NCBI GenBank assembly: GCA_039111635.1
Contig: JBCAQO010000002.1
Coordinates: 1,116,001-1,180,000 of the forward strand
DNA length: 64,000 nt
DNA from: Heterobasidion occidentale
Lineage: Eukaryota > Basidiomycota > Agaricomycetes > Russulales > Bondarzewiaceae
Direction: 5' to 3'
Translations under genes and position numbers: made by a program
In this document: positions 13,114 through 56,448 of the stretch, piece after piece
Position numbering within the stretch: position 1 is the stretch's first letter
Layout of the letters: each line of letters starts with the position of its first letter
Notes under the pieces: model-generated
Databases searched by the model: none
The model's input: the letters and a program-made list of their open reading frames with translations, nothing else
What the model was told of the DNA's origin: nothing

Positions 13114-14291
13114 TGTTAGGACCGCGTCCTAACACGTGCTTTGCACGTGAATGGATGGGCTGGTCAAGTGCTTCGGATGTGCTTCAGACTCGGACCGCTC
13201 CATATGACTTGTTACCATTTACATGCTTGCTGCATGAACACTTACTTACGGTTCCTAGTTCTTGATGTGGACAGACTCTGGTTCCTGGCCCTGTCCCTGG
13301 TTCCTGATCGATCGTGATATGCCTCGGTATTTGATATGGATGTGGACAGACATTAGAGGACCCCTGAAAATAGGGGGGTAGGCCTGAGTCAAATTTTTGG
13401 TAAATCCTGAAAAAAGTTCGGACAAGTGAGCCAAATTTTGCTCAAAATGTTCGGATTTGCCTCTGGTTTTTGGGCCAATATCCATAATTTTGCCGGATGG
13501 AGACATCAGGCATCCCAGATGCCCAAAATGTTCGGATTGCTGGGGTCAGGCCTCAAAAGAGCCAAATTTTTGGGACAACATAGATCAGCCTTTAAAGACA
13601 CAATTTTGTTAGAATCTACATTAGAATGTTATTTTTGAACTGATAATATACAAGAGAGCATATGTGAGAGTGTCTGTGAGCTATCCTCATTAGCAATATC
13701 TTGATTCACCGCTGCGTGCTTTCATCAGTGCCTCAACGTCTGTAACTCCTTCACCGCTACAGTGAGGTTCCGAGCATACTTATTTAGGTGTGTGTAGGTA
13801 ACCAGTGATAATACTAATATTGGCATAGTAACACTGAGCTTACAAATAAGTCTATAGTGGCCTCTGACTAGTATGAGATTGTAAATCAAAAACAGGGAAG
13901 ATATCTCGGGTGAACAGCTTTAGAAAGATGGTTGAACATAAAGAAAGATGAAGTAGAGACGAGCGTGAGAGAAGCGCCTGTTCTACGTAACGAATAAAGT
14001 CGAAGCATTTTCGGGACTTCCTGGACCCGACTGGCCTTCTACTCCTTGGGCTAAAAAACTGCCGTGCTTGTGGCTCAAACCTCGTATCTTGCATACTCTT
14101 GTGTTCAAATCAAACTGGTCATTCCATTGCACCACAAGACCGATACAAAAGTTCGGACTCATCATCCATATTACTGCCAAAAGATCCGGACCCGGCATCA
14201 GCTTTTCCGTGATAACAGCCCAAAAAATCTGGACCACGGCACAGGCCTACCACCACAGCGTGGCATTTTTATCCGGACGGACTCTGGTTTT

Positions 14292-14911
14292 TGTTATGAC
14301 TTGACCGATCGGGACCCTTTGGGGTCGGTCTATCCGATGGATCAAGCATCACATGCTAGGCGGCTCCACTACGGAGCGTACACCAAGGTATTCGGCATGT
14401 CCTTAGGAGCCGACAAGACCGATGGTTCTTCAAGACATCGGTAAAGGCTATATGAGAGGGACATGAGGCTCACAGAGTTCACACAGTAATGAGAGGCGTA
14501 TTCACATGCCATGGGCTTAGGGCTTACGGGTAAGCACCTCGTCGCACCATGATGGATCAGTGCGACTGGAGAAGTACAAGAGTAGGCACCGGCTGAGAGA
14601 GACGGCGACCACAGCTCTCCTAGGATGGAAACCTGGAGAAGCACACGGACTCTTACCCTATACCCTATACAGTATATAAGGCCCATAGAATAGGCTGAGG
14701 ATCTTCAGTCTATTCTCTTCGTTCATTCGTATCTTCGAATACGAATCTCTTCGTTCCCCTGTATCTACACATACAGGATTCTTAGAGCCAATCATTATTC
14801 CCTCCTGTATCAACGCCTGATACAGTCGAGACTTCGCCCACCACTCAGTCCATTGTGCGACCTAGGGAAGAACCTGTTACTCTTGGGTTACTGAACGAGC
14901 AGTTCGTAACA
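14292..14911 (+). repeat. Gypsy-1 5' LTR
   Basis: 620 bp from TGTTATGACTTGACC to GTTCGTAACA. Contains a TATA-like TATACAGTATATAAGG near 14664-14680. Differs from the 3' LTR at only a few positions (mostly C/T transitions and a 2-nt length change in a T/C run near 14755). The right end carries an imperfect inverted repeat GTTACTGAAC/AGTTCGTAAC that includes the terminal bases. Confidence 0.93.
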
Positions 14912-15382
14912 CTAGAATAGACTCGCTTTTGCCCCTACCTTGCACCACACTCTGCTTGCTGCCACACTCTTTCTCACAACCCTCATCGGTGGCATAGACC
15001 CCCACCGAAGAGAGTTACTTCACACACCCTGGAGCAAGACCTAGGCCTAGGATTTCCACCAGGCACTAGACGAACCAATAACCAACTCCGACAGAACAAT
15101 CGTCCTATCCATCAAAGAGAAAATCGCTGGTATTATTCCGATACCAATCGGCCAGCACCCCCAAACTTTGATAACTGCTCGTACCGAGAAGGACGATACT
15201 TCTTCACAAGGGAAGACGAAACAGAAGCTGAGTGGGCCTGGGACGAAATAGCAGAAGACTGGGTAGCACCTCCCCAGTACAGGAACCCCGAACCGGAAAT
15301 CCCGGACACATCGGAGGAAGAAGAAGGAACATCCGAGTCCGAATCCTCGGATATTCAAACACCGATCAACGCCCGAAACATT

Positions 15383-16591
15383 ATGTCAAATCCTACAGAC
15401 CCCCCCGTCTCGTCGGGAAGGGGCAAGCTCAAGCTCCCTGATAACTTCGAAGGGGACCGAACACAATCACAGAAATTCATCATGAATTGCCTCCTCCTTT
15501 TCACAACAGAATCAGACCGATACAAGACGGATACAGACAAGGTTTCCCTCGCCCTCTCTTGCATGAGATATGGAACGGCCGGCGTATGGGCGGAAAGCTT
15601 CCTAAAGAAGACAGTAGGGGCGACCCCGCCCAAAACCGTAGGAACTTGGGACGATTTCCTTAACAAGTTCAAACTCCAGTTCAAGGAAACGAACCTTACG
15701 GACAAGGCCCGAAGCGCCCTCATGTCTTTCTCTCAGGGGAAGATGACGGTGGATGAATATTCAAACCAATTCATCCTTATCGCCGCCGACGCCGACATCA
15801 CCGACAAGGAACAGGTTCCTTACTTCCAAAGAGGGCTTGATCCAAAGGTCATGGACAAAATCTATGACAAGGAAACTCCGCCGAAGGACACGATCCAAGA
15901 TTGGGTCAACACTGCCTGTGAAATAGATGGACGCCTAAGAGCCCGAAGTGCTCAAAAGGCGATCCTCGCCAACTCCACCTCATTCCGAAGTGATTTCCTC
16001 AATCGTTTCCACCTCCAACCAGCTCGTCGCTACAACTCTACCACAGCTCCTCGAAGAATGAACAACCAGGTAGTCGACATGGATATTGACGCCTCCCGAA
16101 AAAGAGATGCCGAGCGCCAGAAGCGCACTTACGATGGCAAGCTCACCACTCGTTGTTTTAACTGTGGAAAGCTAGGGCATTGGGCGTCTGACTGCCGATC
16201 TACTCGTAGAGGCGTTCCCCCGTCTCGAGGAAATTCGCGCAAGCCGATGGGCAGAGGAGGTAGACGAACTTGCGCTGCAGACATGGAGGATGAAGACGAG
16301 CAAGAATCCCCGGTGGGAAACGATGCGCGACTACATCGAGGACTGGAGGAGGGGAGTTCTCATGGCCACCACCGTCGGGTACCACAACCTGGTAATTCGG
16401 TGGAACGTGAGGACCCTTCCGCGAGAAGGGGAGGATCACACCCGAGCGATGGAGAGCGCTACGTACCGCCTAACGGACGACGAAGAAACAGACCCATCAG
16501 TGATACTAATGGCGTCCGAGCGCTCTTCCAAGAAGTAGGGGAGGCTGAGGCAAAGAAGATGTTGGTGGATCTGGCAGAGGATTTTTCCTGA
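15383..16591 (+). CDS. Gypsy-1 Gag with CCHC zinc knuckle
   Basis: The first ATG gives 402 codons. The central part (about 15420-15930) is the capsid-like retrotransposon Gag region, with KFIMNCLLLFTTESDRYK, KFKLQFKETNLTDKARSAL and DEYSNQFILIAADADI. A zinc knuckle CFNCGKLGHWASDC lies at about 16153-16194, for binding genomic RNA, followed by an Arg/Gly-rich tail. The frame is open without a stop back to about 14924, just inside the LTR, and that part encodes an acidic stretch (DTSEEEEGTSESESS near 15306-15350). The true start may therefore be upstream at a non-ATG codon or a lost ATG. Confidence 0.88.
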   Translation: MSNPTDPPVSSGRGKLKLPDNFEGDRTQSQKFIMNCLLLFTTESDRYKTDTDKVSLALSCMRYGTAGVWAESFLKKTVGATPPKTVGTWDDFLNKFKLQFKETNLTDKARSALMSFSQGKMTVDEYSNQFILIAADADITDKEQVPYFQRGLDPKVMDKIYDKETPPKDTIQDWVNTACEIDGRLRARSAQKAILANSTSFRSDFLNRFHLQPARRYNSTTAPRRMNNQVVDMDIDASRKRDAERQKRTYDGKLTTRCFNCGKLGHWASDCRSTRRGVPPSRGNSRKPMGRGGRRTCAADMEDEDEQESPVGNDARLHRGLEEGSSHGHHRRVPQPGNSVEREDPSARRGGSHPSDGERYVPPNGRRRNRPISDTNGVRALFQEVGEAEAKKMLVDLAEDFS

Positions 16592-16599
16592 CCTCTCCT

Positions 16600-19500
16600 T
16601 CACCAGCCGAAGAGAGAGGGTCGAGGAAACTCGAGTATGATTCCCCGTCATATATTCGAATCGGAGCAATGAACAGTCACATTATTACCCCCATTCGACT
16701 TGACGTGCGATTGACAACTCGAGGAAGAAGCGCTGGAGCCAGAGCCGCCATCGACTCAGCATGCGAAGGGATTTTGGTAAACGAAGAGTGGGTACAGAAG
16801 CACAATCTCCCCACCTATCCTTTAAACCGCCTCATCCGCGTTCGCAACGTCGATGACACCATCAACAAGGCAGGTCTCATTCGATGAGGCCTAGACGCGA
16901 ATCTCACCGTCAAAGACAGACGGGGGAGAACTCACACCGAACGCGTCCAGATGTTCATCACCAATCTAGGGAAGGACGACATGCTCCTAGGAACGGATTG
17001 GTTGAAATACCACGACCCCTCCATCGGGTGGAGGCGCCGTGAAGTACACTTTGATCGGTGCCCCAGAGATTGCCAACAACCATATGGGTTTACCAAGGCA
17101 AGGGAAGAGCCTACCAGAAAGGCATGGCTAGCAAAACTACGCGGCGACAAGATTCCCCAGCGGACGAAACCGCATCTTGTCTCAGAACCGGTAGGACCTT
17201 CATGGACTTGGACTAAAGAACAATGGAGCCAAGTACCCGCGAAGGAGTGGAAAACTCGGTTCATGGAGTTACTCGAGCACAAATCCCGACAGCGCAAGGC
17301 TCGGAAGTGGCTCGAAGAGCAAATAACCGAAAGGAAGGAACGCCGGCAAGCTCAACAAGAGGCAACCCAGGGCGAAGCTTCAGGAAAAGTCGCTGAAGAA
17401 GCGCAAACGCCGTTCGACTCCTCCGCAATGGAAAGCGCAGGAGAACCCGTCATTAGGAAGGTAGCTCCAGAACCCTCGGGGTTCGCAAGCTTTGACGAAG
17501 ACCTAGAGGAAGAAATCGATACCACCAACTTGAAAGGTCGAGTGCCGACAGAATATCATTCTTACCTCGACATCTTCAGCGAACGACGATCGCAGAGGCT
17601 TCCCCAACATACAATATGGGACCATGCGATAAACCTCAAACCATCTTTTGTACCCCAGGCCCCGCGGATATTTCCTCTGAGCCCGGAAAAGCATGATGAG
17701 TTAGGGAAGTTCGTCAAGGAGCACCTTTCCAGAGGAACAATACGTCGGTCAACAGCGCATAGCGCGGCCTCTTTCTTTTTTGTAAGCAAGAAAGATGGGA
17801 AACTCCGTCCGGTACAAGACTATCGTCACCTTAACGAACACACCATCCGAGACGTCACCCCCCTGCCATTAATCCAAGAACTATTGGATATTATTAAAGG
17901 CGCAACGGTGTTCTCGAAGCTCGATGTTCGGTGGGGGTATAACAACGTGCGCATCAAGAAAGGAGACGAATCCAAGGCGGCCTTCGTCACACCCTTGGGG
18001 CTCTTTGAACCCACAGTGATGTTCTTTGGGCTCTGCAATTCCCCAGGGACCTTCCAAGCCATGATGAACATGATTTCCAGGAACTCATCTTGGCTCGGAA
18101 AATAGCGATATATATGGACGACATCCTCATCTTCACGAAGACCACAGCGGAACACATTGTGATTCTCAAACGAGTCCTCCAAATCCTGCGCGACAACGAT
18201 CTTTACCTCAAACCAGAGAAATGCGAATTCCACAAGGAGAAGCTAAATTACCTTGGGTACACGATTTCAAAAGACCACGTCGCTATGGAAGACTCGAAGA
18301 TTGAAGCTATCCAAGAATGGCCCATCCCACGCACAGTTCGCGACATCCGCTCTTTCTTGGGCCTAGGGAACTTCTATCGACGATTCATTGATAAATTCTC
18401 CTTGATCGCTCGACCGTTGCATAACCTCACGAAGAAAGATATGAGATGGGACTGGACCACGGAGTGCCAACAGGCGTTTGATCGACTGAAGAGAGCCTTT
18501 GTCAGTCAACCCGTCCTGCTGTACCCTGACCCGATGCGCCCCTATCGGCTCATTACCGACGCTTCCCTCGCGGCATACGGTGCAGTCCTCTTACAGGAAG
18601 GACCTGATAACGACTGGCACCCCGTGGCATACCTCTCCGGATCGTTCTCACCGGCCGAACGGAATTACGACGTACATGATCGCGAACTCCTTGCTATTAT
18701 CAAGGCGATGGAGCACTGGAAACACTACCTCGAAGGCGCTCGACACCCTTTTGAAGTCTGGACGGACCATAAGAACCTGGAACACTTTCAGACGGCGCGC
18801 GACCTGTCAAGGCGACAAGCGCGCTGGAGCCTGTTTTTGTCCCGATTTGACTTCCAGCTCAGTTACAAGGCTGGAACTACGAATCATGCCGATGCTCTGT
18901 CCAGGCGTCCAGACCTTAGTGAGGGGGTGGAATCTGACAACAAAGCACAGACTCTGCTCCCGTCCAGACTTTTCACCGAGTCCAGCGAAACTCTAGTAGA
19001 GCCAAGCGAAGGCATACACGTCAAGGCAACGGAACTCGTATCCTCGGACATCCTCGCCCTTATCCGACACTCGCGCTCGGAACACGATTTGCTAGTCGAC
19101 GTCGCCCTCAAGAAACTGCTGGAAAAAGGTCCAAACGCAATGAAGGGCGACCTAGGAAAATGGACACATGAAGAGGGCATCACAAGACGCGACGGTTACA
19201 TATGCGTCCCAAAGGACGACCTCCTTCGACGAATGATTGTCAAAACGCACCATGACACTATGGCTACAGGACACCCGGGCCGAGCAAAGACCTTAGAATT
19301 GGTCCAACGCCATTACTGGTGGTCAAGCATGACCAAATTTGTACACGCATATGTGGATGGATGTGCAGTCTGCCAATCTACCAAGAACCTTCCCCATAGG
19401 ACCCACCCACCGATCCAACCGCTGGAAACCACAAACGCCCCTTGGCGTTTCATCTCCACCGACTTCGTGACAGACCTCCCGGAAAGCAGAGGCTACGACT

Positions 19501-20516
19501 CGATCAACGTAGTGGTCGATCAAGGTCTGTCAAAAGGAATAGTCATAACTCCGTGTAAGAAACAATCACGGCCGAGGAAACCACGACACTCTTCCAGGAC
19601 AACGTGTTCAAACGATACGGACTACCAACCAAAGTGGTGTCCGACAGAGGTCCTCAATTTGCGGCAAAATTCACAAGGGAACTATGGAAAGGAATGGGAA
19701 TCACCCCTGCCCTCAGCACGGCGTACCACCCCCAAACGGACGGAGAAACGGAACGGGTAAACCAAGAGATCGAACAATTCCTGCGAGTGTTCTGCAACTA
19801 CCATCAAGATAACTGGGTAGACTTGATTCCCTTTGCAGAGTTCTCCCACAATACCCGAAGACACTCCGCCACTGGAAAGTCGCCGTTTGAAGTCCTTTAT
19901 GGGTTCAATCCACCATACTCGGTCGACTCAGCCTGGAACCAAGGTGCCCGCAGTACTGAACGTTTGCAGCTAATCAAAGAAGTCCAAGAAGATGCGGCCG
20001 CAAGTCTACAAATAGCAGCGCAGCACGCCAAGGACCGGGACCTGCACAGGAAACTCCCACAGTGGGAAGTAGGAACCCAAGTTTGGTTAGAAGGAACCCA
20101 CATTCGGACGACTCACCCGAAGTTCAAGTTGGCACCTCGACGCTATGGCCCCTTTTCAGTGACCGAAAGAATCGGTCCTGGCTTATCGGTTGGAAATACC
20201 CGAAACATGGAAGATACACCCGGTGTTTCATGCCTCCATACTCACGGAATATCATGAGACAGAGGCCCACGGAAGGAACTTCCCCAGACCTGCCCCAGAG
20301 ATCTTGAATGAAGAAGAACACTACGAAGTGGAGGCCATTCTAGATTCAAAACGCCAGGGACGAGGGACCAAGTACCTTGTCAAGTGGGTCGGATACTCCG
20401 AGGCCGATAACACCTGGGAACCCTTTGCCCTCCTCAAGGATACGGCCGACGAGGCGCTTCGTGAATTCCACGAAAGCTACCCAGACAAACCCCGACCTGC
20501 GACGATTAAGCTTTAG
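16600..20516 (+). pseudogene. Gypsy-1 Pol (protease, RT, RNase H, integrase, chromodomain), broken by one stop and three frameshifts
   Basis: Protease: AAIDSACEG near 16747, where the usual DSG/DTG is DSA; an in-frame TGA follows at 16885 (CGA to TGA), then GTDWLKYHDPSIGW. RT: KDGKLRPVQDYRHLN, then a break near 18070, then YMDDILIF at about 18111. RNase H: acidic residues in LITDASLAAYGAVL, HDRELLAII, VWTDHKNLEHF and NHADALSR. Integrase: HHCC zinc site (19249-19385), first Asp in STDFVTDLP, break near 19562, then VVSDRGPQF and YHPQTDGETERVNQEIEQFL. After another break near 20185 comes a chromodomain (VEAILDSKRQGRGTKYLVKW, VGYSEADNTWEP) ending at 20516. Each break is one base short, and two of them fall in T or A runs. 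The chromodomain is expected to steer integration to modified histones. Confidence 0.9.
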
Positions 20517-20521
20517 AAAGG

Positions 20522-20528
20522 TATAAAA
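20522..20528 (+). promoter_or_regulatory. TATA box before the extra Gypsy-1 ORF
   Basis: TATAAAA followed by GGGGGAG, just after the Pol stop and about 50 bp before the ATG at 20575. Position and sequence suggest a separate internal transcript for the downstream ORF; no experimental signal can be seen from sequence. Confidence 0.4.
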
Positions 20529-20574
20529 GGGGGAGACGCCCCACCCCTTTAAAGGCAAGAATCCTCCCCAGTAC

Positions 20575-21951
20575 ATGTCCGACCACTCCTCCCTTGACTA
20601 TTCCCCTGGACGTGCCATGCTCATCGATGACGGAACTACCTCCTCCCCTTCAAGAAACCCCTCACCAGACATCGTTCTGGCCGTGGCCAACCCCGACACT
20701 GGACGCCCTAGCCGAAGCAGCCGCCCAGCGACTCCGGAAGGAATTCCCATACCGATCACCGTCCACCAAACCGCGCTCGCCGTCGAAGATCGAACGGGTC
20801 CTCGAACCTCACCACGGATTGAGAGAGCTCATGACGAGCACGATGAAGGACGTCAAGAAGAAGGAAGGCCTACTCCGTCAACGCCTCCGCGACCGACGAC
20901 AACGTTGGCTCAAGGAGACACAAGACAGGAAACGAGAGGCGGAAGAAGACCAGGAAACCCTGCGGACCTGGCATCGCCTACAGTTGCTGAGACAGGTGTA
21001 CAAGAACCAACAACGGCTGGTACATCAACTGCCAGGACCAGAGGACCCCCTACCGGTAGTCGAGATCTGCACCCCGGAGAGTTGGAAGGGCTAGGAAACG
21101 CGCTGCTCCAGCGCACCACCATCTCCGCGGTAATTCAGATGGCCACAGCGCTAGCCTTACAAAGGCTCGCTAACTACTTCGCAGGGCAACCAGGGAGCGA
21201 GGGCGACGACATACCCCGACGCCTCGCTGACGCGAGCGACCAGGTCAGGCTTTTGGCCTATGCAGATGATCATAGGGCCGCCTCCTGGTACGCCCGAGGA
21301 AACAATGGGGCTTACGCCCTACTCATTCATCCGGACGAGTTCTCCTCTTTCATCAATCTGGAGCTCCTCCCCGCCCTCATATCGCGCACCGACACAGGAC
21401 ACTCCTCCCACGCCCGTCCGGTTCAGATTGACCCATTCCGCGTCCAACCATGGAGCAAAGCTAGCAGAGCGATACCGGCTACAAGTAGCCGAGACGCAGC
21501 CGTCCAGACAGAACACGTCTGGACTACGGTTCAACGACAAGCACGAAGAGATCGAGAGGCCCTTCCTCCCACTTCGACAGGACAATCCGCCGGGCAGGAC
21601 GCCGGAGGCAGCAATGAGGAGCACCCTCCAAGGTATAGGAGAAACGAGGTACGAGGAAGCCAGAGGACAAGGGCAATTCTTCAGCCCAGGCGAAGCAGTC
21701 CTAGAAGAACTCGACCAAGAGATCCGCCGACTCCAAACCGTCCTCGAGATAATCGAGCTGAAGGAGCGCATCCACACATTGGTAGAAGAACTCCAATCCG
21801 CCAGCGCCCGACTCAGCGAACTACTTCCTGGACTCGAGCGGAACTAGACGCCTGGGACGAGGTCGAAGACGGCAATTACGATGACATCGACCCCTATTAC
21901 AGGCCAGATGAAGGATACGGGGACTACGGAGACATTGGCGGAGGATACTAG
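20575..21951 (+). CDS. Gypsy-1 extra ORF downstream of the chromodomain (function unknown)
   Basis: 458 open codons in one frame, starting MSDHSSLDYSPGRAML and ending in an acidic Gly/Tyr-rich tail (DDIDPYYRPDEGYGDYGD). No known domain was recognised. A second frame (20594-21094 and 21260-21847) is also long and looks more protein-like in places: a charged helical stretch (MKDVKKKEGLLRQRLRDRR near 20843) and EELDQEIRRLQTVLEII near 21707, both with coiled-coil character. In the first frame the best segments are 21080-21390 (LGNALLQRTTISAVIQMATA and following). Either the real protein switches frame because of base errors, or one frame is a shadow. It sits where env or a Gag-like ORF would be. 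Confidence 0.5.
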   Translation: MSDHSSLDYSPGRAMLIDDGTTSSPSRNPSPDIVLAVANPDTGRPSRSSRPATPEGIPIPITVHQTALAVEDRTGPRTSPRIERAHDEHDEGRQEEGRPTPSTPPRPTTTLAQGDTRQETRGGRRPGNPADLASPTVAETGVQEPTTAGTSTARTRGPPTGSRDLHPGELEGLGNALLQRTTISAVIQMATALALQRLANYFAGQPGSEGDDIPRRLADASDQVRLLAYADDHRAASWYARGNNGAYALLIHPDEFSSFINLELLPALISRTDTGHSSHARPVQIDPFRVQPWSKASRAIPATSSRDAAVQTEHVWTTVQRQARRDREALPPTSTGQSAGQDAGGSNEEHPPRYRRNEVRGSQRTRAILQPRRSSPRRTRPRDPPTPNRPRDNRAEGAHPHIGRRTPIRQRPTQRTTSWTRAELDAWDEVEDGNYDDIDPYYRPDEGYGDYGDIGGGY

Positions 21952-22052
21952 ACCAGGGAGTTGAGGAACCCCTGGTTTTTTCAACATGATGACGGAGAGG
22001 GAAGGACCCTCCGCATCACAGGTACCGGTTTCACGCACAGGACGCCGGAACG

Positions 22053-23670
22053 AACGTCCTGCATGACGTTAAACTGTGAAAAGATAAGAAGGGGGAAGTA
22101 CCTGACCATTTCGCGTTGCAGCCCTCCGGTCTCAAGATGAAGGACAAGCATTCAACACTCTCGTTGTCAAGAGGTATTCTGACAAGCGAATCGGGCGTCC
22201 CGCTTGGATCCCCAGTTTTACAGGGCCCTTTCCGCATTAGGAGGCCCTTAGGATTCACAACATAACCTTGGTACTGGTACATGAATGATGCATGAATATT
22301 GGTGGGAAATCGTGTTGCATGTTCACCGTTGGGGAACGGTGGACCAACCTCGCTGTCAAGGTCTGACAGGTGTCTTGGACGTCCCACTTTGGATCTCCGG
22401 TTTTACAGGGTCTTTTCCGCATTAGGGGACCCTATCTGCGATGCAGGAACTGATGGCCGCACTCCATTAGTACCCAAAACGGAGAAAATACATCCGCAAC
22501 GATGTAAAACTACGAAAGGCTTGGTCCGCAATGACGATAAACTAGTTACCGTCTGGAACGACGCTAAAGCTACCAAGACCCTCGGAGCGTGGTTGTATTC
22601 TGGCAGACGGTGGAAGTGAGGGCCTCCACCGTTGCAGAACCCTGCCGACTAGGTTGAGGCGCTTCCATATTCCATACGCCCTACAGTAAAAGAATATGGG
22701 GTCGACACGGTTCAATTCCGTGCGAGGGGTTTGGGGACATGGAGCGGGTTGTCATCCTTCCGACAAGGCCACGACTACTCCATGGCGCTCCCATTCTACC
22801 CTTGAAGTCCGAAGCAAGGATTCCGCTTCAAGGGCCAGTCAAGAGGCAACTGGGATCGTGCCTCATGATTCATAGCGTCCGCAACGACGGTAAACTACGG
22901 ACGCCCTCCATGGCGTTAAACTGGGACTACCCTTACCTTACAGGGTCATGAGCAGTGTCCAAACATGAGATATGTTTCGACATTGCTGCGTCCGCAAAGA
23001 CGTTAAACTACCACTCCTTTCGGCATAGGAGATGTCGATCGACTTCGTTGTTGACGCCATGATGTTGATCTAGTCCGCAATGACGATAAACTATTATCCC
23101 CTGTTCTAGGGGCCATATTGGAGCTGGGATTACCGCTTCCAGCTGCAATAGTCCGAAATGACCTTAAACTACCCTCACCCCGGAGGATTAAATCTATCGA
23201 GGCTCGGGAGGTTCAAGCCAGGCGATAGCGGACGTCCGCAATGACTATAAACTAGTTGCCGTCCTTCATGACGATAAACTGAGCTGCCCTTCTGTCTACA
23301 GGGCCATGTGAGTTGTGTCAAAATAGGCTTAAAGTCTATTCTCGCAACTCTATAAGTTATCCGGTTTGATATAGTATAAACCGTCACCATCTTACCTCAA
23401 TGGGAACCCTGTCAAGAAGGAGGAACTGGTCTACGGCCCTATGCGCATCACCGATGAATGTTCCGGCGCGCAGAAACGCCTGCTATCTTGTTTACAGGTA
23501 CTCCTACGTTGGAAGATGGATAGGTCCGCAACGACCTTGGCGTAAACTAGCAGGGCAGTCCGCAACGACTTATGTATAAACTAGCCTCAGTCCGCAATGA
23601 CTTAAGGATAAACTAGCGTACGTCCGCAAAGACGCAAAACTATGGACGTCCGGCACGACGTTAAACTACC
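22053..23670 (+). repeat. Array of sixteen short covarying hairpins in the Gypsy-1 3' non-coding region
   Basis: Sixteen units follow the plan stem (3-6 bp), hexaloop close to CGCAAY, complementary stem, 0-11 nt, then TAAACT(A/G). Hairpin positions: 22053-22070, 22489-22506, 22524-22535, 22550-22563, 22876-22889, 22901-22916, 22989-23002, 23073-23084, 23151-23162, 23234-23245, 23260-23273, 23522-23537, 23557-23570, 23589-23602, 23621-23634 and 23646-23661. Stem sequences differ but stay paired: AACGTC/GACGTT, TACATC/GATGTA, ACGCC/GGCGT, AGGTC/GACCT, AGTC/GACT, CGTC/GACG. Twelve have at least four pairs. The region has no long open frame. The pattern implies an RNA element on the element's plus strand, possibly a protein-binding or packaging array; the role is unknown. 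Confidence 0.8.
22195..22434 (+). repeat. Two copies of a larger hairpin unit in the Gypsy-1 3' region
   Basis: A block of about 55 bp occurs at about 22195-22250 and again at about 22379-22434. Both share GTTTTACAGGG and TCCGCATTAGG. The stem is AGGGCC (22222-22227) with GGCCCT (22243-22248) in the first, and AGGGTC (22407-22412) with GACCCT (22428-22433) in the second, so one C:G pair became T:A while pairing was kept. The word TTACAGG or CTACAGG recurs near 22937, 23297 and 23492. Confidence 0.6.
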
Positions 23671-24465
23671 AGGACATACCTTACGCTGACCCCACATAAT
23701 TACCGTCAATGTGGATACCGTGGTATATTCAAGAGACCATGAGGTTCAAAGTCTATTCTTCAAAGTCCTTACCTCGTGTCCAATACCCTTGGTGAAAAAC
23801 AAACTCTGGACGAACACTCAATCTCTAACCTGACAAGGCCACCGTATGGGGCTGACAGAGTTAGGGATCTTCAAAGGGGTCTTGCCGGACTCAAAACAAG
23901 TCAAGAAAAGTCTATTCTTGATAGGTTGGTGGGCCTAAGCCTTAGTAAAGCGATCAACCCACACACCTGGAGTCCCCCTCGATACCGGAGATCAAGGAGA
24001 TGAAGATCTATCCTGGAAACACTGAGACATGGCCTTCGGCACTTTGGAAGAAGAACGACACACACCCATCCACAGACGAGTTTCTATTTCATCCTATAAT
24101 CATTCGCACACCTTTCTGCATCGTCGCCAGATGACACTGGCTCATCAACCTACCAGGGAGCCCTGGTCGAGTAGCTGCCTATTGACTCTAGGAGTGTACT
24201 CACACAAAACGTGCGGTGAAGGAAGAACACCGGGAGAAGGGACAGGGCATTGTGGCTATGCCCCGAACTTCAAATCAAACAGCTCAACGGAGAAGGAAAA
24301 CTCCTAGGCGTTGTAAACGACGTAGGTCGGTCTTCGCCCCAGAAAACGAAGTGATATTGGGAAGACGCATCCCAATCTATTTGACGACCAGCAAGCAATT
24401 GTATGTGGAATGACGATGAAGCTTGTTTCTGCTCAAGCGAGTAGTCCCCTCAGGAGTTGGGACCT
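23671..24465 (+). other. Remaining Gypsy-1 3' non-coding sequence
   Basis: Short open frames only (for example 23776-24003 and 24216-24413), none with a recognisable domain. The sequence lies between the hairpin array and the polypurine tract and belongs to the element. Confidence 0.4.
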
Positions 24466-24478
24466 AGAAAGGGGGTAA
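24466..24478 (+). promoter_or_regulatory. Gypsy-1 polypurine tract
   Basis: AGAAAGGGGGTAA directly before the 3' LTR at 24479: the plus-strand primer site for reverse transcription. Gypsy-2 has the very similar GAAAGGGGGTGG before its 3' LTR. Confidence 0.75.
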
Positions 24479-25100
24479 TGTTATGACTTGACCGATCGGG
24501 ACCCTTTGGGGTCGGTCTATCCGATGGATCAAGCATCACATGCTAGGCGGCTCCACTACGGAGCGTACACCAAGGTATTCGGCATGTCCTTAGGAGCCGA
24601 CAAGACCGATGGTTCTTCAAGACATCGGTAAAGGCTATATGAGAGGGACATGAGGCTCACAGAGTTCACACAGTAATGAGAGGCGTATTCACATGCCATG
24701 GGCTTAGGGCTTACGGGTAAGCACCTCGTCGCACCATGATGGATCAGTGCGACTGGAGAAGTACAAGAGTAGGCACCGGCTGAGAGAGACGGCGACCACA
24801 GCTCTCCTAGGATGGAAACCTGGAGAAGCACACGGACTCTTACCCTATACCCTATACAGTATATAAGGCCCATAGAATAGGCTGAGGATCTTCAGTCTAT
24901 TCTCTTCGTTCATTCGTATCTTCGAATACGAATCTCTTCGTTTCCCCCTGTATCTACACATACAGGATTCCTAGAGCCAATCATTATTCCCTCCTGTATC
25001 AACGCCTGATACAGTCGAGACTTCGCCCACCACTCAGTCCATTGTGTGACCTAGGGAAGAACCTGTTACTCTTGAGTTACTGAACGAGCAGTTCGTAACA
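24479..25100 (+). repeat. Gypsy-1 3' LTR
   Basis: 622 bp, ends TGTTATGACTT and GTTCGTAACA, almost identical to the 5' LTR at 14292. Followed by the target duplication GTTTT and then by the right arm of the TIR element. Confidence 0.93.
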
Positions 25101-25791
25101 GTTTTTAGGCCTTTTTTCACAATTTTTCTCCAGATAGGGGGTCAGGCCTCCCCCCTATTTTCGGGGGTCCTGACATTAGTGATTTGGTACTATACTTAGA
25201 TCAATGACGCATCTTAGCTTACGGATCTCGATCATTGACTTCGGTACCTAAGAAGCGCACAGACCAGATCGTGATCCTGCCCTAGATACTTCTTTGTATA
25301 TTTAGCCGAGATGAGCTTCTAAGAAGCTCAGCTCATTCACCTGTAATATATTCGATCTCTGCACTGCACCCGGTGTCTGGCTACCTTCCTAGCCCACACT
25401 TCGTGATCTCTGTTAGATCTGAAACTCCTTTACACGGTCTGACGACGCACTGGCTTTGTCTCCCTTCTCTTCTTACACCCTCTTCACACACTACTACACT
25501 GGACTCGCCGCCTTCCGCGTTCTCAGTTGGACACCTCCCCGTGTTATCTGTTGGACAGGAGAAGATCATCTAGTTCCTCCTCATCATTGAGAAGACCTCG
25601 AAGATCATCTCCTTAACCTCTTTGAGGACAAGGCAGAGAACAACCCCGAGTTCCTCGAAAGAGCCCAAAGACGGTCGGTCGTCTTCATTCATTGGAGCCT
25701 CCGACTCTACGACGCTGTGGACGTATTAGCCTAGGGATCCCCTTCGTGCATCGGTGCACGTGATAGGTCTCTGACCTAACAGTCCCGACCA

Positions 25792-26993
25792 GAACTGTGT
25801 GAGAGTGCAACATAAAGATTAAACAAACTGAGTTTACCAGATGGCGGTGATGCAATGTCAATGACAACAAATGGTATCGTTTGGCCTTGCGACCGGTAAT
25901 CTGTAAATGCATACGACGCAGTCATCGGGAACTGGCGACGACGAACACGTCTAGTAATAATCTTGCGACGCTGTGTTGGAATCTTGATCTGGAAGGTCCG
26001 GGATGTAGGCTCAATTGGTATGACAGAATCCTCCAGTCCTGGCAATTGCGTGGCTCGTGTGCAGTGCATCTTCACAAGGATGTATATTGGCACAAATTTC
26101 AGGTGCACAACCATTGCATCACTAAAGTCCGGTTCTTCTGGATGAAGAACAATCTTGACAATCTCTCCTTGAGCACCGTTTGTTAAGTCAAGATCAGTCG
26201 CGACATTTGTCGTGACCATAACTTTCATCCCAACGGCAAACTCAGTCCTGTCTGGAAGATTGTTCCGCTTATTTCGCCGCTTCCCTTGTGTGTTACTATG
26301 CCAACTTGCAACTCCATACCATTCAGCTAAGGTAAGAGGTCGATATGATCGGTCCTTTATGGTGTCTTCTGCCATGCATACAAAGAGTTGAGAACCAATA
26401 TCCTGACAATGTTTTTTCAGTGCGGCATCATTCCATTGTCGGCGGACAGCATGTCGGGGGGTAACGAGGGCTGCTGTGCTCCAGGGAGATGATGAGAAGT
26501 CAGTTTTGGGGCAGGATGGGTTCGAGATAATGAGACCACGGAGCATGGTCAGGTTTTCTTGTGTAACATGACCATATCGTAAATTTCTCAGAAAATCACA
26601 CCAGACAGGATCCATGACACGCATCTGCTCCGTAAGCAGAACAACATCTTGAAATTCCGAGTAGATGCCTTGTCCTATCTGAGAATCAACAGAGTCATGG
26701 GCAGGGTTTGCCGGAAAATAAAGGGCCTCCCCTGGTCCACATGCAACTGGAGGAAATTGGTGGAAATTGCCACATAATATAACGCTGATCCCACCAAATG
26801 ACCGGTCGGAGTTCGATTGACCAGGCGGCTGCTTTCCGGTACCGATGTTGTGCGAGAGTTGTGCCAGGAATGACTTTGAGAGCATAGAGCATTCGTCAAG
26901 AATCAGATACTGGAACGGCCTCCAAAACTGGTATAGTTTAGCCTTTGTTTCGTCTCCAATAGCATGACCGGATTGTGAGATCATTCTGATTGT
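25792..26993 (-). pseudogene. Helitron RepHel helicase, middle part
   Basis: Open minus-strand frame between the LTR-C and LINE insertions. It has ISQSGHAIGDETKAKL, Walker B LILDECSM, motif III VILCGNFHQFPPV, TEQMRVMDPVWCDFL, and motifs V/VI near 25800-25870 (FTDYRSQGQTIPFVVID and NLYVALSHSSGRD). These are the hallmarks of the Pif1-like SF1B helicase of Helitrons, which unwinds DNA during rolling-circle transposition. The frame is undamaged inside this piece. The Walker A part lies on the other side of the LINE at 33255-33437 and the last part at 12953-13113. Confidence 0.92.
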
Positions 26994-27203
26994 GTGTGTG
27001 TGTGTGTGTGAAGTCATGTATTAACGTCTAGTGGTGGCGTGCCGCATGTCTAGACGTGTAGCTGTATGTACTCTACGGTAGTGTGAATGTATGTAAGCAT
27101 GATCCAACTCTATGCTCTGCATTGGCCCTCAAGGGGCATGTGTTTACCTCAGGGAGGTTGGGTCGCATGGCGAGAATTATGGTGGTATAGTAAGGTATCG
27201 TAC

Positions 27204-30200
27204 TTAACTGTTGTTTGGTCCGGTAGCAGGTGCTGTGTTTAACCAGCTGCGTAACGTGGCCGCCATCTGTCTCTGTTCCGTGGTTCGAATCTGCACGAGT
27301 CTCGTCGCTCCTCTATGTCCGCCTCCTCCTCGCGCTCGGGGTGTGGTTGCTTGTGTTCGTCGCTCGTTTCGGCTCCTAGGTCTGTCCAGCTCCGTCTCCA
27401 TGGTCTTTGGCAGGTTCAGGTCTCCGAATGTCTTCTTGAAGCGCTGGGTTTCGTGTATGAACTCGAATAGGTGTTTGAACATCGATGGGTTGGATAATAG
27501 TTCGGAAAGGTTACGGCTCGCTCGCCCTACCGCTTGCTCAAGGCGGTGTCGACTGTCGGTAAAGCTTCGGCATTCGAGAAGGAAGTGGGCCACCGTCTCA
27601 TCGCGCTGCCCACACGCGGGACAGGTGGGGTTCTCGAACTCGTCTGGACGTATACGGTGTAGATGACGTTGTAATGGTGCGTGGCCAGTGCGTAGTTGCA
27701 TAAGGTAGCGGCATGTCGACGTGGGAGAGAAGAAGTGATTTTCCGAAACCTGTTCGAAGGTGCTGTGGGATCTATCCTCTGCAGCTTTTGCCATCTCGGT
27801 GACTGTTCCATGAGTTTTTTCCAGCGCTTCTTGAGTCCATCGTTGAACCTTTGCCTTGCCGCCGACCGGCTGAAGGGAAGCTGTCCCCTGATCGCCTTTG
27901 GTAGTACTGTGTCCATGCTCGTGATTCCTCTCGCTGCCGCCTTCGCTTCCTCGTCACTTCTCTCGTTTCCTACAATATCGACGTGCCCTGGTACCCATCG
28001 TAAGGTTGGTTGTCCTCTGCCTCTGCCTCTGAACTCCTTCTCTACCTTGTCGTGAATTGCATCGACAAGATACGATCCTGGGGTGCTCCTGGCTATCTTT
28101 GTGGCCTGTATTGCAGCGACGTTGTCCAGTGCTATCGATGCCGAGCGATGCGGTGGTTCGTTTTGTATGAGCTGTAAAGCAAGAAGGATGCCGGTAAGTT
28201 CTGCTTCGTATACGGTGTGATGTTCTGCTCTGCCAAGGTGCTTGTGCAGCCTCGCTTTTTCGTTACCGTGTCTGAACAGGACCGCCGCTGCCCCTACTCC
28301 CCCTTCTATTAGAGATCCATCTGAATATACCTGTATTTCGTCTCTGTTTTGTTTCTCGGCTTCGATGGCTCCATCTTTGTTGGGTGCAATGCTCGTTTGG
28401 ATGGCTGACTGCCACTTTGGATCGAGTCGCACGGCTTTGATGTCTTCAAATTGGCTCGGAAAGATGGCGTAGGCTTCGTTTAGGAGCCTATGGAGAGGGG
28501 AGCGATCTGGTGTACGGGTTGTCGCGTCTGCGGCCGCTATGGTGTGTCTGTAGAGGGGATGCTCGTCGGCTAGTGTTGCCAGTCTGGTGGCTTCGTCATG
28601 GCACTTTTTGTCGACCAATAGGCTGAATGGTAAAAGATCTGCGTGTGCATCAAGAATATCAGTAGCGGTGGTGCGCATGGCACCGGTTATGTGTATGGCT
28701 GCCTGTCTCTGGACTCTGGCTAGCTTCTCTATCATGCCTTTGGAGCCTTTGCCCTCACGCGATGGTGGGGACAAGAAAATGTCCACCCCATACAGCATTC
28801 TCGGCAGCGCAACGCTGGTGTAAAATTGTCTCATGTATCTCGTAGAGACGCCTTTAGAAGGGCGCGCCAGCCGTCTGTAGTGTGTCACCCACTTTGTGCC
28901 TTTGGCTAGTGCAGACGCGGCGTGCTCCTTGAAATTTAGCTCCTGATCGATTATAATGCCGAGGAATTTGTGAGATTTTGATGGGTGGATGTGCGTACCT
29001 CTCAGAGTGATGCTTGGTCTTTCCAGCGCCCTGTACTCGAACTTCTTGTCTTTCTTTCCCCTGTTGCGTGCCTCCTCTCTCGTGCGAACACGATGTCTCG
29101 CTTTCACCTTCTCTTTTTTCCTTGTGAACCCCACCAATGCAAACTTATCGACAGCGAAAGTGCAGTTGTGTGTGTCAGCCCAGTTGAAGGCTCCGCCTGC
29201 TCGTTCCATCATATCCTGCAGCTTGTCAGCTGCCTCTGCCATCGTCTCAGCTGTTGCGATGTATGCGGTATCATCTACGAAGGCCACTCCGTCTTCTCAA
29301 TTGGCCCTGTTTGGGACATCTAGCAGGTCAGCATTGTAAAACTGAAATAAAATTCCGGACAGCGGGCACCCCTGGTCCGCGCCACAAGGGAATGTGAGCC
29401 AGTCTGATGTGTATCCATCGAAGATGAGTTTTGTGCGTCTGTGTCCTGTCTTGATACGAATCCACTCCGTGTACTCCTTTGGGACGCCTCGTTTTCGCAT
29501 ATTGTGGACGAGACGGTCTAAATTAATGCTTGGAAACGCTCCCTTTATGTCCAAGAAAAGGACACATGCCGCTTCTTTGTTGTCCATGGCGTCGTGTAGT
29601 TTGCGCGTGACATAGTGAAGTGAGTCTGTCGTCTTCCGGCCGGCTCTGCAGCCAAAATGTGTGTCGGGAAGGAGGTGATGGAGTTCGGCTAGTTGCATTA
29701 GTTCAGACGCGATGCAGGCTGAAAGAATTTTGGCGATAGTGCGGAGTAGGGCGATTGGCCTGTATGCATTAGGATTGGAGTAGTCTGGTTTGCCGAGTTT
29801 TCGTAGTACGAGCGTCCGCGAGTCTTTCCAGTCCTGAGGGTAGATGCCAAGCGAGAATGTGGCGCGGAAGATGGGTCCAAGAAATGGGACTAGGATGCTT
29901 GCGCAGTTTTTGTAGACAATATTTGGGATGCCGTCGTCGCCGGGGGCTTTGAGGCCATGGAGTCTCTCTATGGCTCTGTAGATTTGAGCGTTGGTTACAG
30001 GACGGAAGGGAAATGCTGGTTCAGGGTAGCTGTGGTCCATCGGGCTGGGTGCCTGAGTCTCGTCCTGTGAAAAGAAGCTTTCAAATAAAAAATGGCTCTT
30101 GGCCTCGTTAGTCTCCACTTCTACTACTGCGCCATTCTCTTCTTTGCGCTTGAGTGTCGGAACGCGCGCCTGAGCCCCATCTGATGAAGTTTTATCCACG

Positions 30201-31393
30201 TACTTATTTGCTATCCATATTTCCTCGCCCTGCAGGTTCTCTAACCATTCCTCCCAATGTGTCTTCTTAGCCTTTTCAATTGCATCTGCGTAGTTCCTCC
30301 GTGCCTGCTCATGCTCCTCATGCGCCGTGTGTTCCGGGTCGGCTCTGTGCCTGTAGGCTCATCTTGCGAGTGTTTTGTTTGTTTTCTTCATTTCGGTGAG
30401 TTCTGTTGTCCACCACCTTTTTGAGTACGGGGATGGCCTGGACTTGGGAACATTACGCTCGACAGCTTTTTCGATAGCTTCCGTGACGCATTTGAGTGCA
30501 GCATGAAATTCTTGTGGGGTTTGTAGCTCCGGTGGTACGCTGTCCCGTGTGTCTGGGAGATGGGCGCGTAGCGTGTCCTTGGAGTCCTTCCAGTCTACCT
30601 TGCGAAAGTTGAATTTCGGGGTGTTGATCTCGAGGTGCCGCTCGATGTCCAGGCTCGTGAGGATTGGGATGTGGTCGGTTTTCGGTGGCCTAAGTTCGGG
30701 AAAGGTTTTACATTGAAGTATCCTGTCGCGAAAGTCGTCAGTAATGAATACATTATCCGTTCTCGTGTAATTTCCAGAGTTCATGGCACGTAAGGTGGGG
30801 ATATACTTCTCTAAAGCCATCACTAAGCCGTGGTTTGCTGTGATCTCGATCAGTTCCTCCGCACTTTCCAGGTTCGACGACGTAAACAGGTGTTGGTTGC
30901 GTGGCTCATCCCACATGGGGTGATGCCGATTGAAATCTCCTACCCATAGGGAAGCGACTCTTTCATTTGGTGCATTGCGTCGCCTGGTTCGCACGTATGT
31001 GTCTACTGTGCGTATCGTCTCCGAGTGGGTGCAGTCATTGTAGATGTTGACTATCTCCAGCGTGCCTGCAGCGCTCGTTAAGCGGATTGCTGTCGCGTCT
31101 TGGGAGTCTATTGGTACTATCGTCCATTGGTCGGTACTGATGCGGGTCCTGATCATAATGACGGAGCGCGTCTTTGTGTGGTCCTTACGGTGTGATGGGG
31201 GGTATACCGTTCGCCAGTGTGTGTTTGCTCTCGTGTTACCCCAGTGGTCGAGGTATGGTTCTTGGATGCACGCTATGTCTACGTCTTGTTCTTGCAGGGT
31301 TTCTAGTAGATCTTGTTGCGCATACATTGATTTATTCGTATTCTGTTGCCAAATTTTCAGTAGTATGGGTGCGGGTGAAGGTGTGTCGTTCAT
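27204..31393 (-). pseudogene. LINE ORF2: endonuclease, reverse transcriptase, RNase H; two TGA stops and a frameshift
   Basis: Endonuclease (31393-30600): QQNTNKSM, DIACIQEPYLD, SLWVGDFNRHHPMWD and KTDHIPILTSL carry the EEP catalytic residues. RT (about 30000-29200): HGLKAPGDDGIPNIVYK, LDIKGAFPSINLDRL, GADQGCPLSGILFQFYNADL and FVDDTAYIA. RNase H (about 28350-27950): VYSDGSLIEGGVGAAAVLF, EAELTGILLALQLI, LDNVAAIQA and WVPGHVDIVGNERSDEEA. The C-terminus has CPACGQRDETVAHFLLEC. TGA at 30359 and 29297 each replace a likely CGA, typical of 5-methylcytosine deamination. A frame change near 27745 moves the last domain to another frame. Confidence 0.92.
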
Positions 31394-43060: not shown

Positions 43061-46000
43061 GGGTGGAATTAGACAATTTAGGAGAAGTCCTCCTGGGGCC
43101 GGAAAATTTCAATAAAACAGCCCAGCCAAACTCCTGGACCCCCTTCATAGAAGCAACAAACATCTGATCTGTCCATCTCAGCGCAACAGATCCAATAGAA
43201 CCTCTTGATCCACAAAAGATCTTCCACCTTAGGGCAACGGAAAGAATGGCGGTTACCATGATCAAAACAGAGCTTAGGGACCGCATCATAGCAGGAAACA
43301 AAGAAGACCCCTGGCTATTGGAAATACTGAAATAGGTCAATGAACTCGGACCAAGATCCCTCAAGAAAGGCTTGCAGGAATGGAACGAAGAGGACGGCCT
43401 CATACTATATTGTGGAAAGGTTTACGTACCGTCAAACAGAGAACTACAAAGGAACATAATCAAACGGCATCACGACAGCCAAACAGCGGGACATCCAGGA
43501 GTTAGAAGTACCCTGGCGTCAGTCAGTCAAGACTATACTTGGCCCGGAATTTCTATCACAGTACAGCAATACGTTGATACGCTAGAGGTGGCTCTAAGTG
43601 CTGAGCACAATACCAAAACAACCTCTAATGCAAGGAGTGCTGGAGCTAGTATCTGATACACAAGGAATTGTTAGTTAGGACTTGAGAAGGCGAGGGCACA
43701 CTAAAGAGTAATGAGGAGGGTGAGATTAAAGCACCTGAACGGTTTCGGGACTGCACCAAACACCAACCAAGTGTTTGGTCGGTCGGGTCAGGTTGGGGAG
43801 TTGATCGGTGACGAGAGGGTAGTGTCGTGATCGACAACTACGTGGTTCAAGAGTCACACGGGACTCTGACAATATACAAAGACGGACGAGGGGTACGAGC
43901 GAGGGGACAAGTACAAATGTGAACAAGGCCAAACAACAAGGAGGACGAGTCTGCTAAAGTCGGCGAAGACAATTTCAATGTTTGAGATGAGTGCAAATGA
44001 GCTCTGAACTGTGGGGTGCAAAAGCTGGTTTATTCCAGAGTTGTATGTAGGTTTTTGTAGTAAACGGAGCCCCTAAGTAAAATATCGAAAGCAAAATGAG
44101 AGTAAATGCCGAACAGGCGCCAAGACCTAGTGAACATGGAGGATAAGAAGGTAGGTGAGATGTCATATGGGTTCCGAAGGTGATAAGGTAAAAGTCTATC
44201 AGCAATGATGAAATCCTGACCGTTCAGTATGTGTTGTCCGAGCGTAGGTAGCAGGAACAGGCGTTGGAGAACCAATAAAATCAAGAAGCAGTAAACGTAC
44301 CACCCGGGTGGCCAAGTGATGGTGCAAGATTGTGTTTGACCAACCATGCGGAAGTTGGGAAGATAAGTGATAAGGACTGACCAACTTACAGAGCACATTG
44401 GCCAAAACGGACTACTGGCTCCGATCTCATAAACACCTATTGTCACACTCCTGTATGGTCATGGTAAGTACGTGAAGTATGGTCAAACTGACCCAAGTGC
44501 TGCCGAACGTCCTTCGGTGGCTTGCAGTCAGTTGGGTAGGGACCGACCGTGTTTGGTAAGAGTCGGTGTCTTTGGTACTTGTCTAGAGCTGTTCGGTATC
44601 TCCCCAAAGCTTCCCGAATACCTCCCTCGGACCCTAGCCCGGGTGCATACTCATCAATGTGGAAGGATGCGTAATATGTCAATCAACGAAGAACAACACA
44701 CACCCAACAATGGTGCTGTTACAACCGACGGAGATTCTGGACCGACCATTTGGAACAATCACTATGGATTTTATTACAGATCTCCCGGAGTCAAATGGAT
44801 ACGACTCAATACACGTGGTCACAGATCAGTTGACAAAGACAGCGATCATCACCCCTTGCAAGAAGACAATCGATTCCAACGGTACGGCAAAATTACTCTT
44901 AGATCACACATGGCGATGGTACAAATTACTGGACAAGATAATTTCAGACCGCGGAACACAATTCACATCTAAAGTAGCACAGGCGCTACTAGAAGAATTA
45001 GGAATCAAGTCATCCCTCAGCACAGCTTACCACCCACAGACGGATGGAGCAACGGAGCGGATGGACCAGGAACTGGAGCAATACCTCAGGGCATTTTGCA
45101 GCTCCACACAGGACGACTGGGCCAAACTTATTCCCTATGCAGAATATGCCCACAACTCACACCAGCACTCAGCGACAAAGATCTCGCCATTCAAGCTCCT
45201 TCATGGAGACCAACCAAGAGCTTACCCTGCAATCGTCGGAAACACAAATGTACCCACTGCCAACAAGCACCTAGAACTGTTGAAGAAAGCACAGAAAGAA
45301 GCACAGGCCAGTCTGGAAATTGCAGCAGAATCCATGAAGACTCGGCACGACAAGTTTGGGGTAGAACTTCCCCCATTCAAGACAGGCGATCAAGTATGGC
45401 TCAATGGAAAGATCATACACACAGATCACCCCTTGGAGAAGTTAAGGCCAAAAAGATTTGGGCCATTCAAGATTTTGGACACCATAGGAACGGTTAACTA
45501 TTGGCTGGAGTTGCCGAAGAATTGGAGGAAGATACACAACGTCTTCCATGCCTCATAGTTAACCATGTACAAGGAGAACACCACTCACGGTCCAAACCAT
45601 AGAAAACCTCCACCCGACCTCATTGAAGGACAGGAAGAATTTGAGGTCGAAAGAATTATAGCATCCTGCCGCTTTGGACATTGGAAGACCCTACAATACC
45701 TAGTCAAATGGAAAGGGTACCCGGAATCTGACAACTCATGGGAATCAGCGGATGCGGTCAAGAACGCAAAGGATGAAGTTAGCAACTTCCACAGGAAATA
45801 ACCACTAGCAGTCCAAGGCATAGGGCTGTCTACTCAGGAATTACAACTCGCACTTGACAGAAACCAAATAGTGGAACTATGCAACAGACAAATTCGGCTG
45901 ATGAAGACCTCGCCAGGGAAGAAATTACTTGACGCAGGTTTAACGGTCAAACAGGCAGAGACTGCAATACAAGGAGAAACCTCAAGACGGGAGCTGACAC

Positions 46001-56386: not shown

Positions 56387-56448
56387 TAGAACCTCTCGAT
56401 CCACAGAAGATCTTCCACCTTAGGGCAACGGGAAGAACGGCGGTTACC

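Follow-up and report, generated by a model that had tools for sequence, protein, structure and literature searches.

Sixteen short hairpin units, all on the + strand at 22053–23668 of the window (the whole 64,000-nt stretch of Heterobasidion occidentale DNA analysed here), were found in the 3′ non-coding region of a Ty3/Gypsy element, as a preliminary description of this DNA had claimed. The units form paired stems, are under selection, and are identical in stem, loop and spacer to coremin, a motif otherwise known from RNA viruses. Judging from this sequence identity, we infer that the units are probably coremin-type xrRNA-C, forming a redundant array that would stall the exoribonuclease Xrn1 and leave stable 3′ fragments of the retrotransposon RNA. 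The same motif, with covarying stems, was also found in viral contigs and in prokaryotic genomes.

The carrier is a full-length Ty3/Gypsy element at 14292–25100 of the window, in which target site duplication (TSD), LTRs, gag and the order RT–RNase H–integrase are all present. It is flanked by a 5-bp TSD (GTTTT, at 14287–14291 and 25101–25105), and its LTRs are 620 and 622 nt long (5′ LTR, TGTTATGA...TCGTAACA, 14292–14911; 3′ LTR, 24479–25100; both + strand), the 3′ copy differing from the 5′ copy by three substitutions and one 2-nt indel. The gag ORF (14921–16591, +) encodes a Retrotrans_gag domain and a CCHC knuckle, and pol (16888–20257, +) encodes RT, RNase H, integrase H2C2, rve and a Tf2-type SH3 domain in three overlapping frames. 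The pol of this copy is probably damaged, its frames being split in three, and longer open frames cover the same part of pol in other genomic copies. No chromodomain was found in the four pol and extra ORF frames of the element that were examined, so that it does not classify as a chromovirus; a neighboring Gypsy at 56308–59505 does carry a chromodomain. Behind pol lies an extra ORF of 474 aa (20527–21951, +) without a Pfam match, the C-terminal part of which is Arg/Pro-rich as judged by eye. This ORF scored at 90 places in the genome (437 candidates), the other 89 being 74–92% identical and many of them containing stops, and it showed no similarity to the ORF behind the integrase of another Gypsy element (45802–47319). 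The array occupies the 2.5 kb separating the extra ORF from the 3′ LTR, which is preceded by a polypurine tract region assigned by eye (24456–24478, +). Two other Gypsy elements in the window, with 46–51% identity in the aligned integrase parts, had no units.

Directly past the 5′ LTR, AGAATAGACT (14914–14923) is the exact complement of AGTCTATTCT (14707–14716), located near the likely mRNA start. Three further copies of AGTCTATTCT occur in the 3′ region (23333, 23750, and 23909), and members of the family have zero to three copies ahead of the LTR. We take this complementarity to resemble Tf1-type self-priming. Ty3/Gypsy elements of the Tf1/sushi type are self-priming; the present element has the same post-LTR complement to the putative mRNA start and the Tf2-type SH3 in pol, and differs from them in its long 3′ non-coding region with the xrRNA-like array and in its extra ORF. 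Adjoining the element on the − strand (25776–30358) are PIF1-like helicase, RNase H and RT ORFs, which look like other mobile elements.

Each unit consists of a 3-bp stem, a six-base loop, a gap and a tail. Measured from the 3-bp core, the gap has one of two lengths, 2 nt (13 units) or 7 nt (three units), in contrast to the 0–11 nt given earlier for the distance between stem and TAAACT. The tail had been described as fixed, which holds for 13 units (TAAACTA in 10, TAAACTG in 3) and fails in the other three (AAAACTA in 2, TAAAGCT in 1). Unit 1 (22056–22076) has the loop CTGCAT and the tail TAAACTG; together with unit 6 (22903–22923; stem GCC/GGC, loop CTCCAT, tail TAAACTG) and unit 11 (23261–23281; loop CTTCAT, tail TAAACTG) it makes up the three units of class B in the window, defined by a CTNCAT loop and a TAAACTG tail. 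Loops of the form YGNNAD were found in 7 of the 16 units, namely unit 3 (22524–22544, CGCAAT), unit 7 (22990–23010, CGCAAA), unit 8 (23073–23093, CGCAAT), unit 9 (23151–23171, CGAAAT), unit 10 (23234–23254, CGCAAT), unit 14 (23590–23615, CGCAAT, 7-nt gap) and unit 15 (23622–23642, CGCAAA, tail AAAACTA), and were combined with a 2-nt gap in six. A loop ending in C occurs in unit 2 (22492–22512; stem ATC/GAT, loop CGCAAC, tail AAAACTA), unit 4 (22551–22571; loop TGGAAC, in most copies CGGAAC; tail TAAAGCT), unit 5 (22877–22897, CGCAAC), units 12 and 13 (23524–23549 and 23558–23583; both CGCAAC with a 7-nt gap) and unit 16 (23648–23668, CGGCAC). All are on the + strand. Between units 1 and 2, outside the hairpin units, a 45-nt block is duplicated at 22204–22248 and 22389–22433 (87% identical). 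A hairpin resembling a tRNA T-arm, CACGG-TTCAATT-CCGTG, was seen at 22708–22724; a tRNA scan of the whole window found no tRNA.

Pairing within the array was stronger than expected by chance. When the 3′ arms were permuted among the 16 units, the mean number of core pairs was 46.1, compared to the observed 48 of 48 (p = 0.004), and a fourth pair was formed in 12 of 16 units compared to 8.25 (p = 0.03); the fifth and sixth pairs, each taken alone, were not significant (p = 0.27 and 0.12). The stem covariation reported in the preliminary description is thus significant within the window yet thin, and the decisive covariation lies outside it. The ATC/GAT stem alone could stem from two CpG transitions, which the GCC/GGC stem could not. 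A scan of the 3.8-kb region gave no unit on the opposite strand and none in the reversed sequence. A sequence-only scan of the + strand returned 26 hits. Fifteen of these were array units (unit 4 escapes owing to its tail); the remaining 11 lay outside the array in 8 cases and inside it in 3, two of the latter being register shadows, and none of the 11 had all three core pairs. As controls, the − strand gave 7 hits, no hit being fully paired, and the reversed sequence gave 21, of which 2 were fully paired. Generic folding z-scores averaged −1.1 (+ strand) and −0.9 (− strand) for the array, 0.0 and −0.4 for pol, and −1.8 to −2.1 for the LTRs, and are too blunt to bear an argument.

Coremin, GUCCGAAGACGUUAAACUAC, blocks Xrn1, which stalls one nucleotide ahead of its first hairpin, hp1 (Dilweg et al., 2023; PMC10520033). 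It has been described from plant viruses, mycoviruses and other RNA viruses, usually in 3′ UTRs; examples are BNYVV RNA3 and the cucumoviruses, and, for forms with a hexaloop, ETBTV, AEV-1/2, CjTLV, HnlV-4, FgDFV1, hypoviruses and chrysoviruses (PMC10520033). According to the same source, hexaloop forms need the loop YGNNAD (YGAD for tetraloops), a change of the spacer abolishes the block, and a small second hairpin (hp2) of at least 2 bp is needed. The Gypsy units share with coremin the GUC/GAC core, the spacing, the spacer UUAAACUA, several loops (CGCAAU and CGAAAU) and the 3′ non-coding location. Coremin hp1 is a hairpin of about 4 bp; in the window, its 3-bp core is paired in 16 of 16 units, and the spacer UUAAACUA(C) follows hp1 at a 2-nt gap in 13 of 16. 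Over all 16 units, the spacer reads TAAACTA in 10, a one-letter variant in 5 and TAAAGCT in 1. The loops CGCAAU, CGAAAU and CGCGAA were reported to be Xrn1-resistant in vitro in the BNYVV context and CGAAAC was not (PMC10520033); CGCAAU is the loop of units 3, 8, 10, and 14, CGAAAU is that of unit 9, and CGCGAA was found in other genomic copies. On this sequence evidence, the Gypsy motif is taken to be coremin itself and not a mere resemblance. Known coremin cases include fungal viruses; here, the carrier is an LTR retrotransposon, each element of which has about 16 units. In the main text of PMC10520033, the words retro, phage, bacteri, and transpos are absent. Among the matches listed, no title in the open-licence PMC literature reported coremin in retrotransposons or phages, earlier reports elsewhere being possible, and the string GUCCGCAAUGAC had no match in that literature.

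The array also departs from published coremin in its class B loops, in the 7-nt gap of three units and in an hp2 that is often the next unit. With regard to the loops, 6 of 16 end in C, and in 3 of 16 the G at position 2 is replaced by T; natural loops ending in C exist in CcCV1 (PMC10520033), and the loop CGCAAA of units 7 and 15 fits YGNNAD. With regard to hp2, units 4, 6, 11, and 16 closely follow units 3, 5, 10, and 15 as doublets, and the hairpin of the second member can act as hp2 for the first; units 7 (CTCCT/AGGAG) and 8 have an hp2 of their own. A candidate hp2 of −2.4 kcal/mol or better was present downstream of 13 of the 16 units, an enrichment relative to pol and the extra ORF (p = 0.01) and to the region past the array (p = 0.008), though not relative to random places within the array (p = 0.11).

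The motif points to a fold that blocks 5′–3′ exoribonucleases without the aid of a protein. Retrotransposon RNA, once decapped or cleaved, would be degraded from its 5′ end by Xrn1 (or the nuclear Rat1) until the exonuclease met the array and halted one nucleotide ahead of a hairpin. The first competent unit would stop decay and, where it was leaky, the next would do so, the second unit of a doublet possibly serving as the hp2 brace of the preceding one. The surviving 3′ fragments would contain LTR sequence and 0.8–2.4 kb of the non-coding region, including both the polypurine tract and R. Sixteen blocks seem to exceed what stalling needs; they would make the block redundant and leave the array free to evolve through gain and loss. 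Use of the fragments is guesswork: the product may shield the 3′ portion of the genomic RNA, or may be a non-coding RNA that occupies Xrn1 or dampens RNA silencing, as has been reported for BNYVV ncRNA3. In the host genome, two loci match XRN_N and several matches to Piwi were found, and fungal Xrn1 is a fitting target because BNYVV RNA3 with coremin gives rise to a stable RNA in yeast in an Xrn1-dependent manner (PMC5869530). A processing signal, offered as a minor option in the preliminary description, is supported.

Comparable strategies are known from viral RNAs. Tandem structures in the flavivirus 3′ UTR (xrRNA, yielding sfRNA) likewise block 5′–3′ exoribonucleases and leave 3′ RNA, differing in their larger ring-like fold, and we know of no sequence relation between flavivirus xrRNA and coremin-type units. 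The xrRNA-LT type of plant viruses, including that of the ST9a crystal structure, also blocks exoribonucleases by a local RNA fold, and differs in its larger pseudoknotted ring and other sequence (PMC12412911).

Beyond the fungal genome, the exact pattern was detected in 65 stretches of IMG/VR viral contigs, compared to none with the backwards pattern. Scans in which one stem pair was left free yielded 77 stretches for pair 3, 89 for pair 2, and 66 for pair 1, and altogether 94 viral sites were distinct by flank, the pairing filter having removed none. According to a crude ORF call, 15 of the 94 sites were inside an ORF, compared to 1354 of 1880 positions drawn at random from these loci, and of the 79 sites outside crude ORFs, 52 lay between two ORFs of their own direction. 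The position of these 79 sites, some of them beside tRNAs, would also fit processing, and coremin has been reported to stall scanning ribosomes in vitro (PMC10520033). The motif could accordingly be a general roadblock selected for a use other than against Xrn1, that is, against scanning ribosomes, as a landmark for endonuclease processing, or as a barrier to a helicase or to RT. We consider this unlikely for the Gypsy array, which follows the last ORF and is out of reach of capped scanning. The viral sites showed no enrichment of hp2 (p = 0.86 for 92 of the 94 sites), in which they differ from coremin; phages, then, either do without the last element that coremin needs or provide it in another way, and these sites may not behave as coremin proper.

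Stalling of Xrn1 by the array remains the preferred reading when binding proteins are considered. The preliminary description had favored a multivalent binding site for Gag (its NC part) or for the extra ORF product, acting in packaging or export, and the array does lie directly behind an ORF with an Arg-rich C-terminal part (by eye), its units being many and family-wide. The unit-less Gypsy relatives are neutral in this respect, since the post-integrase ORF of one relative is unrelated to the extra ORF. However, loop and tail of the 20–21 nt motif, with covarying stems, also occur in phage and prophage contigs, where the flanks are mostly unrelated and the base after the pattern is nonetheless A in 66 of 67 sites, and a family-specific protein cannot explain this. 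To our knowledge, no such Gag or ORF is to be expected in phage or prophage contigs. Protein binding is therefore regarded as quite improbable, and the earlier interpretation as a whole as partly supported. Matches to annotated phages supported a cyanophage as the source of one locus and a lactobacillus phage as that of another; a third query and a shorter one had no match.

The stems of the viral sites provided the decisive covariation. At the 94 sites, which represent fewer independent events as some come from related phages, pair 2 was T-A in 68, A-T in 15, C-G in 7, G-C in 3 and T-G in 1, and pair 3 was G-C in 85, C-G in 8 and T-G in 1, with no unpaired case at either position. The search pattern had N for both letters of these pairs and so introduced no bias into the two distributions. 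Pair 1 was C-G in 92 sites and unpaired in 2, the latter being the only new sites found when this pair was freed (L213 and L214), which are taken as chance but were kept in the alignment and the counts. For 50 distinct viral sites of 22 nt, the covariation score was 0.610, compared to 0.136 for shuffled alignments (0 of 500) and at most 0.143 for slid ones. With a covariance model built only from the 50 viral-contig sites, 12 of the 16 units in the window were recovered at E ≤ 0.26, E-values here being rough, and unit 1 at E = 6.7, units 4, 6, and 11 being missed; a single match outside the array had E = 6.5. A short inverted repeat with fixed spacing and many copies might also be bound by a protein dimer at the DNA level, as in the array of Su(Hw) sites in the Drosophila gypsy element. 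A dimer site would keep the letters of its half-sites, though, whereas at pair 2 all four Watson–Crick combinations occur and none of the 94 sites is mispaired, and all 16 units of the window have one orientation, which makes such an array very improbable.

Within the 45-Mb genome, the motif was abundant, with 1,773 matches (892 + 881) at up to two mismatches compared to 5 (3 + 2) for the backwards pattern. Spacing was nearly fixed: in a sequence-only scan with free stems, covering the 3′ region of the window, 60 copies and 6 further loci, loop and tail combined 522 times at a gap of 2 and 151 times at a gap of 7, with all remaining gap lengths adding up to 105. In 61 3′ regions (that of the window and of 60 fetched copies), the units were present in 59 and absent from two (L032 and L038), and 57 regions had 7–22 units mostly or wholly in one orientation, the top count of 22 including 2 that lie past the LTR. 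Orientation was mixed in L027 and L031, L063 had 5 additional units on the other strand, and two further regions had 1 each. By a strict count, each of the 54 of 61 regions with a recognized LTR start contained 8–17 units. Six extra loci chosen around sparse exact hits all turned out to be arrays belonging to copies of greater divergence, in which the identity of aligned pieces falls as low as about 75%.

Nucleotide diversity was then compared in an alignment of 53 of the 61 regions (L027, L031, L032, L036, L038, L041, L043, and L052 were left out). Mean diversity over all sites was 0.034 in unit cores (285 columns) and 0.106 between units (1204 columns; p = 1e-16), while outside CG/TG/CA it was 0.0115 (181 columns) and 0.0935 (773 columns; p = 3.5e-20), so that cores are conserved threefold overall and eightfold outside these dinucleotides. 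The two or seven gap bases had a diversity of 0.103 over all sites and 0.061 outside CG/TG/CA. Because the unit cores vary less than the DNA between them, selection acts on the units and not on the array DNA as a whole. Together with the covariation of the viral sites, this upholds the earlier view of a selected RNA hairpin as opposed to a plain DNA repeat; some units are clearly local duplicates, but a neutral repeat arisen by accidental duplication is next to impossible given the three- to eightfold conservation of cores and a motif common to viral contigs.

Loop and tail were associated in both settings. In the Gypsy copies, T at loop position 2 went with a tail G in 148 of 153 units and other loops with a tail A in 667 of 667, the class B units across copies descending from few ancestral units. 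In the viral contigs, CTNCAT was found with tail G in six stretches and with tail A in none, while CGCAAY had tail A in 66 of 67. This covariation hints at a contact between loop and tail, and a loop–spacer contact has been proposed by the authors of the coremin study (PMC10520033). As the link also holds in viral contigs, class B units need not be defective, and CUNCAU with UAAACUG would be a second loop–tail solution, outside the rule as worded in PMC10520033. The six viral contigs (L224–L229) carry class B hairpins of the form GTC-CTNCAT-GAC-NN-TAAACTG, five of them outside crude ORFs.

In the prokaryote collection, 35 stretches contained the motif; going by their titles, to which we assigned the phyla, they correspond to 29 Bacillota and 6 Patescibacteria. 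A protein above the TIGR00649 (MG423) cut-off, which we take to represent the RNase J family, was present in 28 of 28 searchable motif-bearing genomes, compared to 9 of 14 controls; the search drew on 29 of the 35 loci. This survey agrees with a role against RNase J but proves no link. Use by phages is plausible because a tested flavivirus xrRNA also blocks bacterial RNase J1 (PMC5760640).

A wider proposal, for which we see the chances as evenly balanced, is that coremin may be a general, protein-independent stop for 5′–3′ exoribonucleases across mobile elements of different kingdoms. It would act in RNA viruses against Xrn1/XRN4, in fungal LTR retrotransposons as an array giving a stable non-coding 3′ RNA, and in DNA phages of RNase J-bearing bacteria by sparing the mRNA of downstream genes, with the CUNCAU/UAAACUG class belonging to the same family. 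Exoribonuclease-resistant RNAs are regarded as devices of RNA viruses. If true, a retrotransposon with about 16 of them would imply that retrotransposons are under selection by host 5′–3′ decay, and transposons would be predicted to give rise to sfRNA-like non-coding RNAs. Natural candidates for RNase J blocking would likewise be provided by the phage and prophage sites, and this viral trick against decay may reach far beyond RNA viruses.

Several further observations were made on the viral and prokaryotic loci. In the IMG/VR loci (L075–L177) and the genome contigs (L178–L212), the motif was mostly outside ORFs, often just ahead of a start codon or past a stop. One site (L122:4698–4718) lies exactly between two tRNAs, those in L080, L096, L110, and L118 lie 1–2 bases past a tRNA-like gene, and L195:3988–4008 is 18 bases ahead of a tRNA; the tRNA scan covered 41 of the fetched loci. 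Rfam searches gave no match in the window at the gathering score and left the motif uncovered in the 14 loci scanned at the gathering score and in the 8 scanned at E up to 1. The phage motif was also considered as a promoter, tmRNA tag, hammerhead, preQ1 or Pistol RNA. These readings were dropped, given the free covariation of the stem and the lack of an Rfam match on the motif; a Pistol match exists elsewhere in L127, away from the motif. Finally, nine viral contigs (L215–L223) contain the classic tetraloop coremin, GTCCGAAGAC-NN-TAAACTA, located by eye after terminator-like U runs and followed in most by small hairpins with the loop AGACA and the tail AAACTG, possibly a further class.
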